Part shown: in pieces, positions 8,404-17,639 of the stretch | Layout of the letters: every line of letters begins with the position of its first letter | Position numbering within the stretch: the stretch's first letter is position 1 | NCBI GenBank assembly: GCA_021785005.1 | Contig: JAJYGT010000131.1 | Location: forward strand, 1-35,202 | Reading direction: 5' to 3' | DNA: 35,202 nt | DNA from: Actinomycetes bacterium | Lineage (GTDB): Bacteria > Actinomycetota > Acidimicrobiia > Acidimicrobiales > Acidimicrobiaceae | The notes under the pieces: generated by a model | Seen by the model: the letters and a program-made list of their open reading frames with translations, nothing else | Database searches by the model: none | Told to the model about the DNA's origin: nothing | Program-made: the position numbers and the translations under genes

Positions 8404-11400
8404 TTGGTCCCAAATTTACTTGCGAAAGATACCTATCTGCACGAAGTCTTGTCGACTCGACTAGCAGCACTTTTCGGTGACCTTTCTCAAGCAGATGATT
8501 TAGTGCGCGTGTATTTTTGTGCTGATAATAAAAACCAAGCTCAAGGAATACAGTTTTCACTATCAAGCAAGCTTTTAGGCGATGAAGATCGCAGCCCCGA
8601 GGTTATTTTTGAGGGGCCAAGGTCAAAGTTTATTCAAAGTTTAAAGTTGCAGAGCGAAACTTTGGCCACGGGCATGCCAGTGGTTCTTCATGGATTTGAC
8701 GATGATGAGCGGGTCGCCATTGGAGTTGCTCTATCTGATCACGAGACGTCATTAATGGTGATTGTCGTTTCATCTAGACTTGCTATGAATTTGGGACGCC
8801 AGGCGTTGCTCATCGCGGTCGATGAACTCGCTCGAAAGGTTGAGCACGTAATTGCGGATCTAGAATTTGAAAAAGGCGAAAACTTGCTTGACGAGCTTTC
8901 GAATTTGAGTTCTGAGTTTCATGCGGTAACCAATTTGGACGAATTGCTCGACGTTGCTTCGAAGAAATTAAACGAGGTCCTTTCGTGCGATTACGCGGAG
9001 GTGAGGCTTGAATTCTATGGTTATCCAAGCAAATCTCGGACCATTAATTCAGCAGTGACTCCGCCGGCGAGTGATTTGGAATCCATTGATCGGCTCGTTG
9101 AATACTGCAAAAACAGCGCGGATTGGATTCGAATCGATGATATTGCAATCGAATCCATTGAGTCGTCGTTGGCGCATATACCCCGACATCTTTTAAATCT
9201 TAGTTTTTTTGGATCACTTATGATTGTGGGACTCGATGCCAACTTAGGTTCAGCCGCAGGCGCATTCGTACTTGCCTCCAGGAACAAATTTAGCTATAGC
9301 CAACGGATGTTGGCCCAACTTCGTAGGGTAGCTCACCAAGCATCCTCTTCGCTCAAACGCCTACACAAAGATGAGAAGCTTCAAACTAACTGGGATTTTT
9401 CAAAAGAATTAGTAGGGAAGACTTCACTTTCTAACTTATTTGAGCGAACTCCTAGTCTTTTGAAAAAATTATCAGGGGCAAATGAGCTTGTATTGCTCCT
9501 GGAGCAAGATGCATTTACTGAGCAACCCACGCATTGCAACGAATTGACAATTGTATTTGTTAGCAATGCCGAACAATACGCAAATGCGGATCACTGGAGA
9601 ATGAAGCTGGAATCATTAGCGGTTGTTGGGGATGCTTTAATCGACGAAGTCTTGGTCAGTGACGAAGTGCATGTTCCTTTAACCGGGTCGTACCCACTTG
9701 GCCTTTTGATTTTGGTCAAATCAGATGGCGGTCGTTTTAACGACGACGTAAGATTTGGCCTTCAAGGTACGTATTCCCACCTTGGAGCCACGTTAGGTTT
9801 AATTTCAGCGAGACAGCTTGAGTATGCTAAGGATCGCGAGCGCAAGTCACAAGATGCATTTTTTGCTTCTGTCGCAGTAAGTATTTCAGAATTGGTCTGG
9901 GCCGTTGACGCAAAAGGAACCATAATATGGGCGTCACCGAATCACGAGGAATTCACTGGAAAGTCTGCTGAATCAATTTTAGGTTCTGAGTTCGGCGATG
10001 TCGTGAGGTTCTATGCGGGCGATGACTTTAGCATTGAAAGTTGGTATTTTAGAACCGACGCCAATATTTTGTTTGAAATCGACGATAAAGAGGGTAAAAC
10101 GCACATTTTAGAAGCTGTGACAAACGAACTGTCTGAACCTGCATCTAATGGTGCAACTATGGTAATTTCGGCCCGCGATATTACCGATAAGATCGCGATG
10201 GCCCGTGACCTTGAGGAATCCGAATCTCGTTATAGGTCGATCGTTGAAGCGTCAGGTCAGGGCATATTAATGCTGGCCTTAGACGGTACTATCCAATTTG
10301 CCAATCAAGCTATGGGTCAACTTTTGGGATACGCTCCTTCGACGATGACTGGAACCTTCGTGGGCGCTTATTTAGACGCATCGAGCCTTGCTGCAGCTCA
10401 CATGTTATTCGTAGAGGCTCTAAACCTAGTAGAAGTACAGCGCGAACTACTTTTATGTCATAGTGATGGATCAATCGTACATGGCTTGACTAAAGTGTCG
10501 CTGATCCGAGATAGTGCGAGTAAACCGATTGCGCGGCTTGCTGTTATCGCAGATATTTCGCGGCATAAAGCGGCGGAGTTTGAACTTGAGGCCAAGTTGC
10601 GCCGAGATCCCCTTACTGGTTTGCTCAATCGCAGCGGCGCGGAGAAGCATTTTATGGAAATGCTCGAAGAACTCGAACCAGGAATGCTCGTGGCTATGTT
10701 TTTCCTGGATCTAGACCGGTTCAAACTGATAAATGATACCAAAGGTCATCTCATCGGGGATAAATTGCTCATCAGCGTGGCAGAACGACTAAACGTTGCA
10801 AGTCGGGCTCGCGACATTGTGGCACGACTTGGTGGGGACGAATTTCTGGTTGTCGCATCGGACTTTCACGATGCGGAAGCTGCTGAAAATTTTGGAAAGC
10901 GAATAGCCGCTAATTTTGCTCGACCATTTGTTATCGATGGTGAAGACTATTACACCACCGCGAGTATTGGGATTGCCACCGCGCCATTGGGTGCGAACTG
11001 GAGTGAATTATTGCGAGATGCCGATACGGCTATGTATCGTGCGAAAGATAGCCGCTCATCAAAAGTAACGTCGTTTGACAGCAGTTTTAGATCCCAGGTA
11101 GAACGACGAATGGTGATTGAGGGAGAGCTTCGACAGGCGATTGTCCGTAACGAAATGAGGATGGTTTTCCAGCCACTGATAGACATAGCATCGGGTTCAA
11201 TCGTAGGACTTGAATCATTAATGCGGTGGGAGTCAGCCAAGCTTGGCACCATGGGCCCGAATGAATTTATCCCAATTGCCGAGGATTCAGGGTTGATTCA
11301 ACCACTCGGTGGTTTTGCCATCAATTCTTCGATTACGAGCTATAGGGAACTTATGCGCCACGACCCATCTTTGGAGCTATTCGTGGCGGTAAATGTGTCC

Positions 11401-11907
11401 ATGCGCCAGCTGGAGACCTCATATCGCAATTCATTTATGGAGCTGATTAAAAGCGCAAGCCTTGGACCTGGCCGATTAATACTTGAGGTTACTGAGAGCG
11501 AAATGATGAGGTACCCAGAAGACTTTGGCAATCTTTTTCACGATCTCCAAAACATGGGTGTCAGAATTGGAATCGACGACTTTGGGACCGGTTACTCCTC
11601 GCTTTCTCAATTGAGTGCGTTAGCTCCCGATATTGTAAAGATTGATAAACACTTTATATCGCAACTTGGCACAGATCAGGCTCGTCAGATTGTAACAGCG
11701 GTAGTCGCGATGTGTGACGCGTTGGGTGTCTATACAGTAGCTGAAGGGGTGGAAACGTCTAGCCAGCTTGAAATACTTGCCTCGATCGGTTGTCATTTCG
11801 CACAGGGATTTTACATATCCAGGCCGATTGAGGTACCACAATTACCCTACGAACTCGCCTCCTTGCAAGGTCGCCTTCGAGAAAGCGGACGGAAATTTGC
11901 GTGGTAA
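8404..11907 (+). CDS. GAF-PAS-PAS-GGDEF-EAL cyclic-di-GMP enzyme
   Basis: A 1167-residue soluble signalling protein. The first ~480 residues look like degenerate GAF-type sensor repeats. Two PAS domains follow (about 490-600, AVDAKGTIIWASPNHEEFTG, and 605-725, FANQAMGQLLGY). The diguanylate cyclase domain has intact GGDEF at 810-814 and an RxxD inhibitory site (RARD) five residues before it. The phosphodiesterase domain has ESL (937-939) for EAL plus NVSMRQL, LEVTESE, IDDFGTGYSSL, KIDKHFI, AEGVETS and QGFYISRP, so catalytic and metal residues appear present. Both activities are predicted. No membrane segment is evident. TTG at 8404 is supported by GGGAGGGAG (8389-8397), 6 nt upstream. It is monocistronic, facing a convergent operon 31 bp downstream. 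Confidence 0.92.
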   Translation: MVPNLLAKDTYLHEVLSTRLAALFGDLSQADDLVRVYFCADNKNQAQGIQFSLSSKLLGDEDRSPEVIFEGPRSKFIQSLKLQSETLATGMPVVLHGFDDDERVAIGVALSDHETSLMVIVVSSRLAMNLGRQALLIAVDELARKVEHVIADLEFEKGENLLDELSNLSSEFHAVTNLDELLDVASKKLNEVLSCDYAEVRLEFYGYPSKSRTINSAVTPPASDLESIDRLVEYCKNSADWIRIDDIAIESIESSLAHIPRHLLNLSFFGSLMIVGLDANLGSAAGAFVLASRNKFSYSQRMLAQLRRVAHQASSSLKRLHKDEKLQTNWDFSKELVGKTSLSNLFERTPSLLKKLSGANELVLLLEQDAFTEQPTHCNELTIVFVSNAEQYANADHWRMKLESLAVVGDALIDEVLVSDEVHVPLTGSYPLGLLILVKSDGGRFNDDVRFGLQGTYSHLGATLGLISARQLEYAKDRERKSQDAFFASVAVSISELVWAVDAKGTIIWASPNHEEFTGKSAESILGSEFGDVVRFYAGDDFSIESWYFRTDANILFEIDDKEGKTHILEAVTNELSEPASNGATMVISARDITDKIAMARDLEESESRYRSIVEASGQGILMLALDGTIQFANQAMGQLLGYAPSTMTGTFVGAYLDASSLAAAHMLFVEALNLVEVQRELLLCHSDGSIVHGLTKVSLIRDSASKPIARLAVIADISRHKAAEFELEAKLRRDPLTGLLNRSGAEKHFMEMLEELEPGMLVAMFFLDLDRFKLINDTKGHLIGDKLLISVAERLNVASRARDIVARLGGDEFLVVASDFHDAEAAENFGKRIAANFARPFVIDGEDYYTTASIGIATAPLGANWSELLRDADTAMYRAKDSRSSKVTSFDSSFRSQVERRMVIEGELRQAIVRNEMRMVFQPLIDIASGSIVGLESLMRWESAKLGTMGPNEFIPIAEDSGLIQPLGGFAINSSITSYRELMRHDPSLELFVAVNVSMRQLETSYRNSFMELIKSASLGPGRLILEVTESEMMRYPEDFGNLFHDLQNMGVRIGIDDFGTGYSSLSQLSALAPDIVKIDKHFISQLGTDQARQIVTAVVAMCDALGVYTVAEGVETSSQLEILASIGCHFAQGFYISRPIEVPQLPYELASLQGRLRESGRKFAW

Positions 11908-11938: not shown

Positions 11939-12661
11939 TTAGACTAACGGCCATGGGTAGGGTCGAGCTTCAGGATCTAGTCTCGGTAGTTTTTTTCGAG
12001 AAATGATATATTGGGATCGTGCCTGGAACGCCATAATTTCTGTTTCACTTAGCAGCTGACCAAAGATGAGTTGCGCATTGCGCGATACACGGGCAATGTC
12101 ATCTAAATGATGAGCCGATAGTTCAGCGCCGCCAAATTCCCAGATTACAGTTCTAAGTTTTGGGACTTCGTGAAACATTAAACCGTGGTCGATTCCCCAA
12201 AGGTGGTCTTGTCGATCAATAAGTATATGGCCCGACTTTCGGTCGGTATTATTCCCAATGAGGTCGAATGCGCAGAACGCAATAAATTGGTCGAAGAGCT
12301 GAGAATTGGTCATAAGTGAAAAATAGTGTTCTTCGAATCGCGCGTCTATAAACAATTGCAACGACCCGAGCCCGTATGGCGCGTCGTGGCGCAGAACGGT
12401 TGGGGGAATGAGTTCCCATCCGAGGCTATTGGACAGCTCAAAAGCGGCGACTTCGCGAAAACAAAGTCCGTTAGGAAAATCCCACAAGGGACGTTCGCCT
12501 TGCAGCGGCTTGTAAATCGCCGCGAGGTGAATTCCATCTAGTTCTACTTCGACTAGTAACGTCGCGTTAGAGCTGTACGGCATTCGACCCTTAATCTCGA
12601 TCGTGCCTTGATTTAAAATTTCTAAAGTGTCGGTGCTCGGTAACCGTTTGTTCTCGGGCAA
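11939..12661 (-). CDS. SCO1664-family protein, PI3/4-kinase-like (Rv2133c type)
   Basis: The protein belongs to the actinobacterial SCO1664 family. Sequence features suggest an atypical kinase fold: AIYKPLQGE with Lys51 (nucleotide Lys), REVAAFE with Glu70, then NNTDRKSGHIL (Asp140, His145) and WGIDHG (Asp158), resembling catalytic and metal-binding loops of PI3/4-kinase and HipA-like proteins. Activity and substrate are unknown to me. The frame opens at ATG 12694, but TTG 12661 is preferred because AGAAGGA precedes it with good spacing and family members begin about ten residues before LEILNQGTIEI; this gives 240 residues. It overlaps DUF3090 by 40 nt, so the two are translationally linked. 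It is the last gene of a minus-strand operon. Confidence 0.82.
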   Translation of the reverse strand: MPENKRLPSTDTLEILNQGTIEIKGRMPYSSNATLLVEVELDGIHLAAIYKPLQGERPLWDFPNGLCFREVAAFELSNSLGWELIPPTVLRHDAPYGLGSLQLFIDARFEEHYFSLMTNSQLFDQFIAFCAFDLIGNNTDRKSGHILIDRQDHLWGIDHGLMFHEVPKLRTVIWEFGGAELSAHHLDDIARVSRNAQLIFGQLLSETEIMAFQARSQYIISRKKLPRLDPEARPYPWPLV

Positions 12662-13119
12662 GGATGTCCTTCTGGTTCGATAGGATAACCACACAATGGG
12701 CAGGTGGGACGCCCAGCTTCAATGAGCTCAGTTCCCTGAATGGCAAGTGTTCCCGCGAGTTCTTTGGATATCTGCAGCCTGACCTTTTTCGGCAATGAGT
12801 CAAGGTCAGCGTATTCAGTGAAGTCGATCAAGACCCTATCTGAATTACTTATTTGTGCAACTTCAATTTCACCTACTGCGAAATGGGGTTCGAGTGGTGG
12901 AACCACGGGAAATGCTTTGGGCAGATGACCGAGGCGATCAATTTCGCCAAGGATCATTGCAATTGACTTTACTAGACCTGCAACCTGGGTTTTCTCCAAT
13001 TTCAGTGTGAGATGTTCGCTTTGATCTCTTACTTGGATTATAAATACACGATTTCCAGGTTCTCCAAGAGCGCCCAGGGCGACCTGCTCAGGTAGTTCGA
13101 AGTTGAAATCAGAACTCAC
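12622..13119 (-). CDS. DUF3090 protein with C-terminal zinc-knuckle (Rv2134c type)
   Basis: A 165-residue DUF3090 family protein. The N-terminal part (ELPEQVALGALGEPGNRVFIIQ) is a beta-rich domain; the C-terminus has CPLCGYPIEPEGHPC (Cys140, Cys143, Cys154, plus His153), a likely zinc site. The biochemical role is unknown. It starts with GTG at 13119, only 1 nt after the stop of the phosphatase gene, with GAAGG upstream inside that gene. It runs 40-73 nt into the SCO1664-family gene. The same three-gene order occurs in mycobacteria (Rv2135c-Rv2134c-Rv2133c), near the mycothiol gene mshC, which argues for joint function. Confidence 0.88.
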   Translation of the reverse strand: MSSDFNFELPEQVALGALGEPGNRVFIIQVRDQSEHLTLKLEKTQVAGLVKSIAMILGEIDRLGHLPKAFPVVPPLEPHFAVGEIEVAQISNSDRVLIDFTEYADLDSLPKKVRLQISKELAGTLAIQGTELIEAGRPTCPLCGYPIEPEGHPCPRTNGYRAPTL

Positions 13120-13120
13120 G

Positions 13121-13765
13121 TTATGAGACCTTCATGTTAGGGTTCGGCGTTCTATTGACGTACAATGTGTAATTGCCGACACTAGTAATCGAAATTGCGC
13201 TTATTCCAGCGGTGGATATTACCAAGCGCTGAAAAGAGTCTAGATGGATTCCCAGACAGTGGGCCACGAGTGCTTTAATTGGATCCGCATGCGAGAACGC
13301 GGCAACGGTTTTCCCAGGATATTCCTGATAAACAAATTCTAGAAAGTCAACCATACGAGAAGACATTTCTCGGAACGATTCTCCATTTGGAAAGCGAAAA
13401 CGACTTGGCGAGTGTTGGACAATTCTCCATTCTGGCAGTTTAGAGAGTTCGTCTAAGCGCTTTTGTGTCCAATCTCCGAAATCGCATTCCAACAATCGAT
13501 CATCGGTAACGATGGCCTTTGATCTCGCATTTGCAAGTGGCGTGGCTGTCTCTTGGGCTCGCTCAAGTGGCGAACTAAAAACTTCGTCAATTGATTCGAC
13601 AGATGCCAACTCTTCAATCACTGATTTCGCCTGGAGTTTTCCCTCGTCAGATAAGAAAAGCCCTTTTGCTCGTCCTGGTAGCACTGTCCCTGTCGTTGGA
13701 GTTTTACCGTGCCGAATCAATATTAGAGTTGTTGATTTGTCTTCTGGCTTTTGTTTTTCTTTCAC
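13121..13765 (-). CDS. Histidine phosphatase, MSMEG_4193 family (Rv2135c type)
   Basis: A 214-residue histidine-phosphatase (phosphoglycerate-mutase-like) protein. The catalytic motif LIRHGKT has His19 as the predicted phosphohistidine; SSPLERAQETA (near 64-74) and LLECDFGDW (near 88-96) carry the supporting Arg and Glu, and AFSHADPIKAL (near 157) the second catalytic His. Family members have been annotated as probable phosphomutases, and Rv2135c as an acid phosphatase; the physiological substrate is open. The GTG start at 13765 is the only initiator upstream of the catalytic motif and has a poor ribosome site. It is the first gene of the trio, 135 nt downstream of the thiolase stop. Confidence 0.88.
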   Translation of the reverse strand: MKEKQKPEDKSTTLILIRHGKTPTTGTVLPGRAKGLFLSDEGKLQAKSVIEELASVESIDEVFSSPLERAQETATPLANARSKAIVTDDRLLECDFGDWTQKRLDELSKLPEWRIVQHSPSRFRFPNGESFREMSSRMVDFLEFVYQEYPGKTVAAFSHADPIKALVAHCLGIHLDSFQRLVISTAGISAISITSVGNYTLYVNRTPNPNMKVS

Positions 13766-16892: not shown

Positions 16893-17639
16893 TTGAGCGT
16901 GGAAAGGAAGTTGACTGTGGCACCTCCTGAGATCACTTATCCGAAAGTTGTTTTGGTAGTTGTGGCACATCCCGACGATGCGGATTTCGGCGCTGGCGGC
17001 ACTATTGCTAAATGGATTAGTGAAGGCGTCGAGGTGCATTACTGCCTCGCTAGCAGCGGGGGAGCCGGTGGGTTTGACACCGAGATTGACCGGGATCTCA
17101 TCCCTGCGATAAGAGAATCTGAACAAAGACGCGCCGCTGAGATCTACGGGGTGCATTCAATCGAGTTTCTCGGATTTTCAGACGGATTTATAGAAGCGAA
17201 CTTAAAGTTGCGCGGCGAGATTTCCAGAGTCATCCGAACCATTCGCCCTGATACCGTTCTTTGCCAGTCTCCAGAACGCAATTATCAACGGATCCAGGCG
17301 TCGCACCCTGATCATTTGGCGACAGGTGAAGCCACATTAAGAAGCGTCTACCCTGACGCACGAAATCCTTTTGCCTTTCCAGAATTGCTAGAAAAGGGAC
17401 TCGAGCCACATATTGTCAGCCAGGTATTTATGATGGCTGGTCCAAATCACAATTTTGTTTCAGACATATCGTTGACTATCAATGATAAAATTGCCGCGCT
17501 TCTTGAACACAAAAGCCAAATCAAAGACCCTGACGCCCTTGGTAAAATGATTATGTCATCAGCGCTGAACAACGCTCGAGAGGCAAGTCTAGCGCCCGGA
17601 GTTTATGCCGAACTTTTCCAGGTTATAAAGATAGCTTAG
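16893..17639 (+). CDS. PIG-L (LmbE) family deacetylase
   Basis: Up to 248 residues. The zinc site AHPDDADFGAGGTIAKW (near 26-42) and the second metal motif ASHPDHLATGEA (near 134-145) mark the PIG-L/LmbE N-acetylglucosaminyl-type deacetylases, the superfamily of MshB and Mca of mycothiol metabolism. The motif HPDDADFGAGG belongs to a generic subgroup, so I do not assign MshB. Start choices are TTG 16893, GTG 16899 (AAGG eight nt upstream) and GTG 16917 (AGGA eight nt upstream); the last two have better ribosome sites, so the mature N-terminus is uncertain by up to 8 residues. It is cytosolic and stands alone between a divergent and a convergent gene. Confidence 0.88.
   Translation: MSVERKLTVAPPEITYPKVVLVVVAHPDDADFGAGGTIAKWISEGVEVHYCLASSGGAGGFDTEIDRDLIPAIRESEQRRAAEIYGVHSIEFLGFSDGFIEANLKLRGEISRVIRTIRPDTVLCQSPERNYQRIQASHPDHLATGEATLRSVYPDARNPFAFPELLEKGLEPHIVSQVFMMAGPNHNFVSDISLTINDKIAALLEHKSQIKDPDALGKMIMSSALNNAREASLAPGVYAELFQVIKIA

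Follow-up and report, generated by a model that had tools for sequence, protein, structure and literature searches.

What might a kinase-like protein, a DUF3090 protein and a histidine phosphatase do jointly, when their genes lie one after the other in a single operon? The question is raised by three minus-strand genes of the window, a 35,202-nucleotide stretch of contig JAJYGT010000131.1 (assembly GCA_021785005.1) from an actinomycete bacterium of the Acidimicrobiaceae. In operon order, these encode an MSMEG_4193-like branch 1 histidine phosphatase (13121-13765, 214 amino acids), a DUF3090 protein (12622-13119, 165 amino acids) and an atypical kinase of the SCO1664 family (11939-12661, 240 amino acids, with a TTG start). 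The same three families (TIGR03848, TIGR03847 and TIGR03843, respectively) form the Rv2133c-Rv2135c trio of Mycobacterium tuberculosis, so that such trios are by definition the closest relatives. The trio is a core chromosomal trait of many Actinomycetota, M. tuberculosis included by family names, and the kinase and DUF3090 are found in more than half of the Chloroflexota genomes sampled. It is without a described joint function, and the only activity described for its families is the weak acid phosphatase of Rv2135c (PMC3866925).

The answer proposed here, for which the chances are judged to be about even, is that the trio is a reversible phosphorylation module, in which the kinase and the histidine phosphatase have a single conserved substrate in common and DUF3090 is an accessory. 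The kinase, a minimal member of the PI4KII/Fam20/HipA clan, would move the gamma-phosphate of ATP onto a hydroxyl of this substrate. The phosphatase would remove the added phosphate or another one of the same metabolite. DUF3090, with its PUR/Whirly-like sheet and zinc site, could recognise the substrate, hold the enzymes together or set their balance. The computed basis consists of a kinase fold with an invariant active site, the phosphatase family, an invariant metal site, the co-inheritance of the genes and a co-transfer of kinase and phosphatase; the activity of the kinase, the common substrate of the two enzymes and the role of DUF3090 are inferred. A rapidly evolving protein is an unlikely substrate, as the loop behind the DHG motif of the kinase (KLRT..W) is almost invariant; the most likely class is a small metabolite or else a macromolecule that is itself conserved. 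The module as proposed predicts an active kinase, a substrate common to kinase and phosphatase, and unaffected mycothiol. Since the eukaryotic phosphoinositide 4-kinases, the Fam20 secretory kinases and HipA are of the same clan as this kinase, the identity of its substrate would inform on how the clan arose.

The SCO1664-family kinase

The family model TIGR03843 matches the whole protein at 234.3 bits, against a curated cut-off of 172.4. The PF00454 model of PI3/PI4 kinases scores 26.7 on the window copy versus a gathering score of 27.1, and matches 60 of 64 relatives at expectation values (E) up to 1, the best being 7.7e-14. Weaker matches among these 64 are to HipA_2 (20/64) and Fam20C (PF06702, 9/64). 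The alignment of the 64 relatives (A1) was the basis of an AlphaFold2 model with a predicted local distance difference test score (pLDDT) of 91.5 and a predicted template modelling score of 0.90. The structure closest to this model in a Foldseek search is PI4KII-alpha (4hne, E 6.9e-9), with a template modelling (TM) score of 0.61. Further matches are to PI4KII-beta, Fam20A (5wrr, E 1.4e-6, TM 0.61) and 5xoo (TM 0.62), followed at lower rank by CtkA and PI3K/PI4K. A profile search of the PDB that used the sequence alone also placed PI4KII-beta (E 6e-4) and Fam20A (E 1e-3) on top.

Conservation was counted across two phyla, in a set of 156 relatives. Lys51 of the YKP motif, the ATP-binding lysine (12509-12511, minus strand, as for all features of the trio), Glu70 of helix C, which pairs with it (12452-12454), and Asp158 of the DHG motif, the equivalent of DFG (12188-12190), are each present in 156/156. 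The same holds for D, R, K and H of the catalytic loop DRKxGH (Asp140 to His145, 12227-12244), Arg141, Lys142 and His145 thus being likewise invariant. Arg170 and Thr171, which follow the DHG motif, do not vary either. The ATP-binding Lys, the Glu, the catalytic Asp and the metal-binding Asp by which kinases are generally recognised therefore all sit on a kinase fold, with His in place of the loop Asn. On the strength of the model, the SCO1664 protein is a kinase by fold with an intact catalytic set, and it is predicted to be catalytically active. The earlier note on this DNA had picked out these kinase-like residues and proposed a comparison with PI4K and HipA folds; the comparison returned a kinase fold with PI4KII, Fam20A and CtkA as neighbours. 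Neither of the refuting outcomes that it had named beforehand, a fold without a kinase-like ATP site and loss of the Lys and Asp residues across the family, appeared.

His145 stands where most kinases have an Asn as the second metal ligand and, being His in 156/156, is a signature of the SCO1664 family. This substitution could point to a kinase fold that performs another transfer, such as AMPylation, with the phosphatase serving a neighbouring pathway step. SelO and SidJ are atypical kinase-fold enzymes with reactions of this type. Set against this, the normal set of Lys, Glu, Asp, Lys and Asp is complete and normally spaced, and only a slim chance is given to such a transfer.

PI4KII-alpha and PI4KII-beta provide the best structural and PDB profile matches and have the same YKP, E-A-AYLV, NTDR and D motifs. 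Unlike them, the SCO1664 kinase has just 240 amino acids, no large insertions, no palmitoylated CCPCC loop and His for Asn in the catalytic loop, and the TM score is just 0.6. Fam20A, Fam20B, Fam20C and the hydra Fam20 match in fold, and PF06702 weakly in sequence, but the SCO1664 kinase is much smaller and its open reading frame starts right before the kinase domain, with no space for a secretion region.

HipA and CtkA belong to the same clan, and both the weak HipA_2 matches and the position of CtkA as a fold neighbour would suit a HipA-like protein kinase. Its target would be a conserved protein, for example a class I synthetase-like protein such as cysteinyl-tRNA synthetase (CysRS) or MshC, with the phosphatase or DUF3090 counteracting it. 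MshC is indeed encoded beside the trio in Actinomycetes, and CysRS adjoins it in one Chloroflexota lineage (L203, L207, L224). The latter adjacency is, however, limited to a single lineage outside the Actinomycetes and could be given by chance. Furthermore, there is no toxin-antitoxin arrangement and no antitoxin-like partner, the partners being a phosphatase and a zinc protein, and the locus is a stable part of the chromosome as opposed to a mobile toxin module. A HipA-like role is thus considered unlikely, if still a chance to be reckoned with.

The histidine phosphatase

The first gene of the operon encodes a protein that matches PF00300 at 149 bits (cut-off 21.7). Its score of 178.3 with TIGR03848 (MSMEG_4193) lies below the curated cut-off of 203.85, yet this is by far the best of 13 models and the gene is syntenic. 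The catalytic residues R, H, R and H are invariant in 137/137 relatives, with the acid residue being Glu in 133/137 and Asp in 4/137. The RHG motif (at His19), the catalytic Arg, the Glu/Asp and the second His of branch 1 histidine phosphatases are therefore all present, as had been proposed for His19 from the motif. The closest solved structure is that of the phosphoserine phosphatase PspA (4ij5).

The M. tuberculosis homologue, Rv2135c, has been described as a tetrameric acid phosphatase that is located in membrane fractions and has no phosphoglycerate mutase activity (PMC3866925). Its Km for para-nitrophenyl phosphate is ~10 mM, and activity on phosphoenolpyruvate, glycerol-phosphate and fructose-6-phosphate is low (PMC3866925). 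With such kinetics, none of the compounds assayed is established as the real substrate.

The DUF3090 protein

PF11290 matches the DUF3090 protein at 103 bits (gathering score 27), and TIGR03847 at 106.5, which is below its curated cut-off of 117.25. Judged by PF11290 and synteny, the protein appears to be a divergent member of the TIGR03847 type. It comprises a beta-sheet/helix domain with two repeats and a C-terminal Cys3His cluster. The cluster forms the putative zinc site CX2CX8HXC (Cys140, Cys143, His152 and Cys154; 12658-12702), the columns of which are invariant in the DUF3090 alignment (A2); in domain numbering, C136 and C139 are kept in 163/163 and C150 in 162/163. A Cys/His cluster had been noted here and is present, although the label of zinc knuckle does not suit it, as CX2CX8HXC is nearer to a zinc ribbon than to the CX2CX4HX4C knuckle. 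A CxxC..HxC motif in DUF3090 has been noted earlier by others, with metal binding suggested (PMC9425974).

The AlphaFold2 model built from A2 (pLDDT 91.5) consists of a strand-rich repeat and a helix, twice, and then the CX2CX8HXC tail. In Foldseek, PUR-alpha is the best match (E 5.7e-4), accompanied by Whirly proteins and, lower down, the trypanosome MRP1/2, with TM scores of 0.34-0.47. The twelve top PDB matches are all PUR-alpha and Whirly, at probabilities of 0.93-1.00. PUR-alpha, Whirly and trypanosome MRP are binders of single-stranded nucleic acid (DNA or RNA) that share one fold class. The likeness, two predicted beta-sheet/helix repeats, is a weak lead and not an assignment because the TM scores are just 0.34-0.47; DUF3090 further differs from PUR-alpha and Whirly in having no sequence similarity to them and in its extra Cys3His site. 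A DUF3090 sequence profile found no match in the PDB, and the model gave only weak matches, mostly uncharacterised, in a viral structure library.

This fold lead could be read as a system that writes and erases phosphate on nucleic acid, whereby DUF3090 would bind RNA or DNA and guide the two enzymes to one of its hydroxyls or phosphates, possibly during repair. In several distinct clades, DNA-repair genes adjoin the whole trio or some of its members: two uracil-DNA glycosylase types, a UvrC-like nuclease, RarA, MGMT and RecO (L208:693-1358, L262:6904-7572, L280, L196, L119 and L108). The uracil-DNA glycosylases adjoin in Acidimicrobiia and in kinase-only Chloroflexota; in Acidimicrobiia, a divergent gene of this kind lies upstream of the trio in 31 loci, the window locus not among them. 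The recurrence fits the fold lead, but it was noticed post hoc, with no background comparison, and is estimated at most at about twofold. As the fold matches are weak and most of the phosphatase's close relatives act on small molecules, a nucleic-acid target is rated rather improbable. The broader claim, in which DUF3090 would be a new bacterial PUR/Whirly branch and the two enzymes would phosphorylate nucleic acids reversibly, as a system conserved in Actinomycetota and Chloroflexota, is more doubtful still.

From its position between Rv2133c and Rv2135c, Rv2134c is presumably DUF3090, and from gene order MSMEG_4192 is presumably the same gene in Mycobacterium smegmatis. Under rifampicin, transposon mutants of Rv2134c in BCG become rarer (change of -1.42; PMC11329110), and MSMEG_4192 is overrepresented after dibucaine (+1.49, p 0.045; PMC10127668). 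These phenotypes hint at the envelope, as screen-level pointers and not as tests.

Joint inheritance and natural variants

The distribution of the genes was followed in 159 evenly sampled Actinomycetota genomes and in 151 Chloroflexota genomes. Kinase and DUF3090 occur in the identical 73 of the 159 Actinomycetota genomes, with zero discordant cases. In Chloroflexota, 80 genomes have both, 5 the kinase only, 21 DUF3090 only and 45 neither (Fisher p 1e-16, a statistic that ignores relatedness). The order phosphatase-DUF3090-kinase on one strand is found in 133/148 loci. The remaining 15 comprise six loci cut by contig ends, five Micrococcaceae pairs and four Chloroflexota cases of DUF3090 and kinase. 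Given the invariant order and the co-occurrence, a chance arrangement is excluded, and the independent inheritance that the earlier note had named as refuting did not appear. No fusion among the three genes was found in the 148 loci.

Kinase and DUF3090 are not neighbours in 25 of the 80 Chloroflexota genomes that have both. Among seven such genomes that were inspected, one (G215) reflects a contig break and six (G178, G188, G219, G291, G307 and G318) have the genes truly apart: in G318 they share a contig but are separated by 46 kb, and in the others they lie 2 kb or more from the contig ends. Reversed gene order was seen in G198 and G207. Co-occurrence in the absence of linkage cannot be accounted for by block inheritance of an operon.

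Natural variants help to dissect the role of each part. In Arthrobacter and Citricoccus (Micrococcaceae), phosphatase and kinase form a pair that lacks an intervening DUF3090 and is too closely spaced to hold one (45 bp in L211). G171 and G172 have this pair as an additional copy, next to a separate DUF3090 that has a phosphatase of its own, and the Citricoccus genome G170 has no DUF3090 whatsoever. The Micrococcaceae pairs nest inside Acidimicrobiia with the same sister, L178, in both trees, with support of 0.95-0.99 for the kinase and 0.91-0.99 for the phosphatase; the deeper placement in the phosphatase tree has a support of 0.72. The trees are most simply read as a joint transfer of kinase and phosphatase from an Acidimicrobiia-like source, with loss of DUF3090, so that the two enzymes would form a transferable unit. 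The reversible cycle suggested by the earlier note stays an inferred one, albeit strengthened by this pair. A MoxR-like ATPase/VWA-type gene pair adjoins the Micrococcaceae pairs (L211, L214, L220, L222, L228 and L281) where called (L211, L214 and L281).

The phosphatase slot also varies. Five kinase-less Chloroflexota genomes have DUF3090 followed by a phosphatase of PTP/dual-specificity type (Pfam PTP-SAK, CDKN3), the fold of which is unrelated to that of the histidine phosphatase (L242, with a 1-base gene overlap, L245, L251, L256 and, by cluster, L254). Taken together, the variants support the tie between kinase and phosphatase best; DUF3090 is often present but can be separated, and the phosphatase slot can be filled by an enzyme with a different fold. 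In one group of kinase-less Chloroflexota, nine genomes have DUF3090 behind a gene for a D-2-hydroxyacid dehydrogenase (L243, L247-L249 and L257-L261).

Several points weigh against the phosphorylation module. DUF3090 occurs without the kinase in 21/151 Chloroflexota genomes, as counted above. In the related Chloroflexota G164, G165 and G167, and in G166, DUF3090 and kinase are adjacent with no phosphatase beside them and no full family-level phosphatase match elsewhere in the genome, so the phosphatase is not obligatory. Save in the unlinked genomes, a fixed operon would explain the co-occurrence too, and the tree-distance correlations among the three genes are moderate (0.67, 0.63 and 0.54), with no control gene. 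No report of a kinase assay was found in the literature for any SCO1664-family member, and kinase folds can catalyse other reactions, such as AMPylation and glutamylation.

Three metagenome-assembled genomes labelled Rokubacteria (L163, L172 and L195) carry the trio, and all three genes group with Actinomycetota copies. This is either a transfer or wrong binning.

Mycothiol and inositol

Proximity to mshC had led the earlier note to hint at mycothiol or inositol metabolism. SCO1664 has been reported to lie invariably near mshC in Actinomycetes (PMC4255298), and in the present sample the linkage is a trait of the Actinomycetes families. MshC and CysS were divided at ~340 bits, CysS reaching 315 in most genomes and three genomes (G057, G158 and G122, at 331-345) being ambiguous. 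By this measure, the trio is present in 32/33 Actinomycetota genomes with an MshC-level match, and such a match is missing in 41/73 trio genomes of this phylum. Of ten Chloroflexota trio genomes checked, eight show CysS-level scores only. Trio genomes therefore contain the mycothiol makers, and not vice versa. An MshC-like gene was also seen in an Actinomycetota genome with neither DUF3090 nor kinase (G039 C3:173980-175122, L138).

A specific role can be envisaged in which the phosphatase is MshA2, dephosphorylating N-acetylglucosamine-inositol-phosphate, and inositol or one of its derivatives is phosphorylated by the kinase. Descriptions of the pathway name MshA2 but give no gene for it (PMC2628429, PMC9736012), and the 32/33 genomes and the mshC linkage agree with this. 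An MshA2 candidate should occur only alongside other mycothiol genes, and the trio does not; it is not beside mshC in the non-Actinomycetes loci compared, and some genomes keep the kinase with no phosphatase of this fold. Inositol compounds are not among the substrates assayed for Rv2135c. Mycothiol synthesis as the general function of the trio is thus rejected by the phylogenetic profile against MshC, and the MshA2 role is given a low probability; the trio may have been recruited later within mycothiol makers. An Ino1 profile (PF07994), run over both phyla, gave no signal in Corynebacterium glutamicum, so the search missed an expected positive, this species presumably having Ino1.

Absence of mshC, as the earlier note had it, holds within the window but not for the genome, which has an MshC-like gene on another contig (C101:4265-5233, L137). 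This fragment, cut by the contig end, scores 372 bits for MshC versus 354 for CysS, and a separate CysS is on C132. The PIG-L deacetylase noted near the trio is real (16893-17639); as MshB it was rejected, with a score of 36 against a cut-off of 224.

The window locus and its neighbours

The minus-strand open reading frames and the family models agree with the earlier description of three named families in one tight operon. The interval first assigned to the trio (12622-13765) holds two genes only, the full span of 11939-13765 being needed for all three; the numbering of Lys51, Glu70, Asp140, Asp158 and the phosphatase His19 is correct for the starts used. Phosphatase and DUF3090 are separated by a 1-nt gap at 13120. 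The DUF3090 stop (12622) and the kinase TTG start (12661) produce a 40-nt overlap, and the kinase start codon falls among the zinc-site codons of DUF3090. A ribosome-binding-like AGAAGGA, read off the sequence, lies within DUF3090 (12662-12673), 5 nt before the TTG. Compared with Rv2133c-Rv2135c-type trios, the window copy is not beside mshC, and two of the three models score it under their trusted cut-offs. It is on account of these scores that it is regarded as a clear yet somewhat divergent member of the known trio.

A constant fourth partner gene was not found, as neighbours vary by clade. They include uracil-DNA glycosylase and etf in Acidimicrobiia, ACS, ppx-like and eno genes in f7, pst/phoR in f13, mshC/uppP in Actinomycetes, and RarA, CysRS and others in Chloroflexota. 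In 21 Acidimicrobiia loci, a ~330-amino-acid protein weakly like DUF6183 is encoded directly downstream of the kinase (L072:120-1115), and this is not the case at the window locus. There, a thiolase gene lies upstream of the trio. From downstream, a gene for a 1167-amino-acid GGDEF/EAL-type signalling protein (8404-11907) converges on the trio, with 31 bp separating the stop codons.

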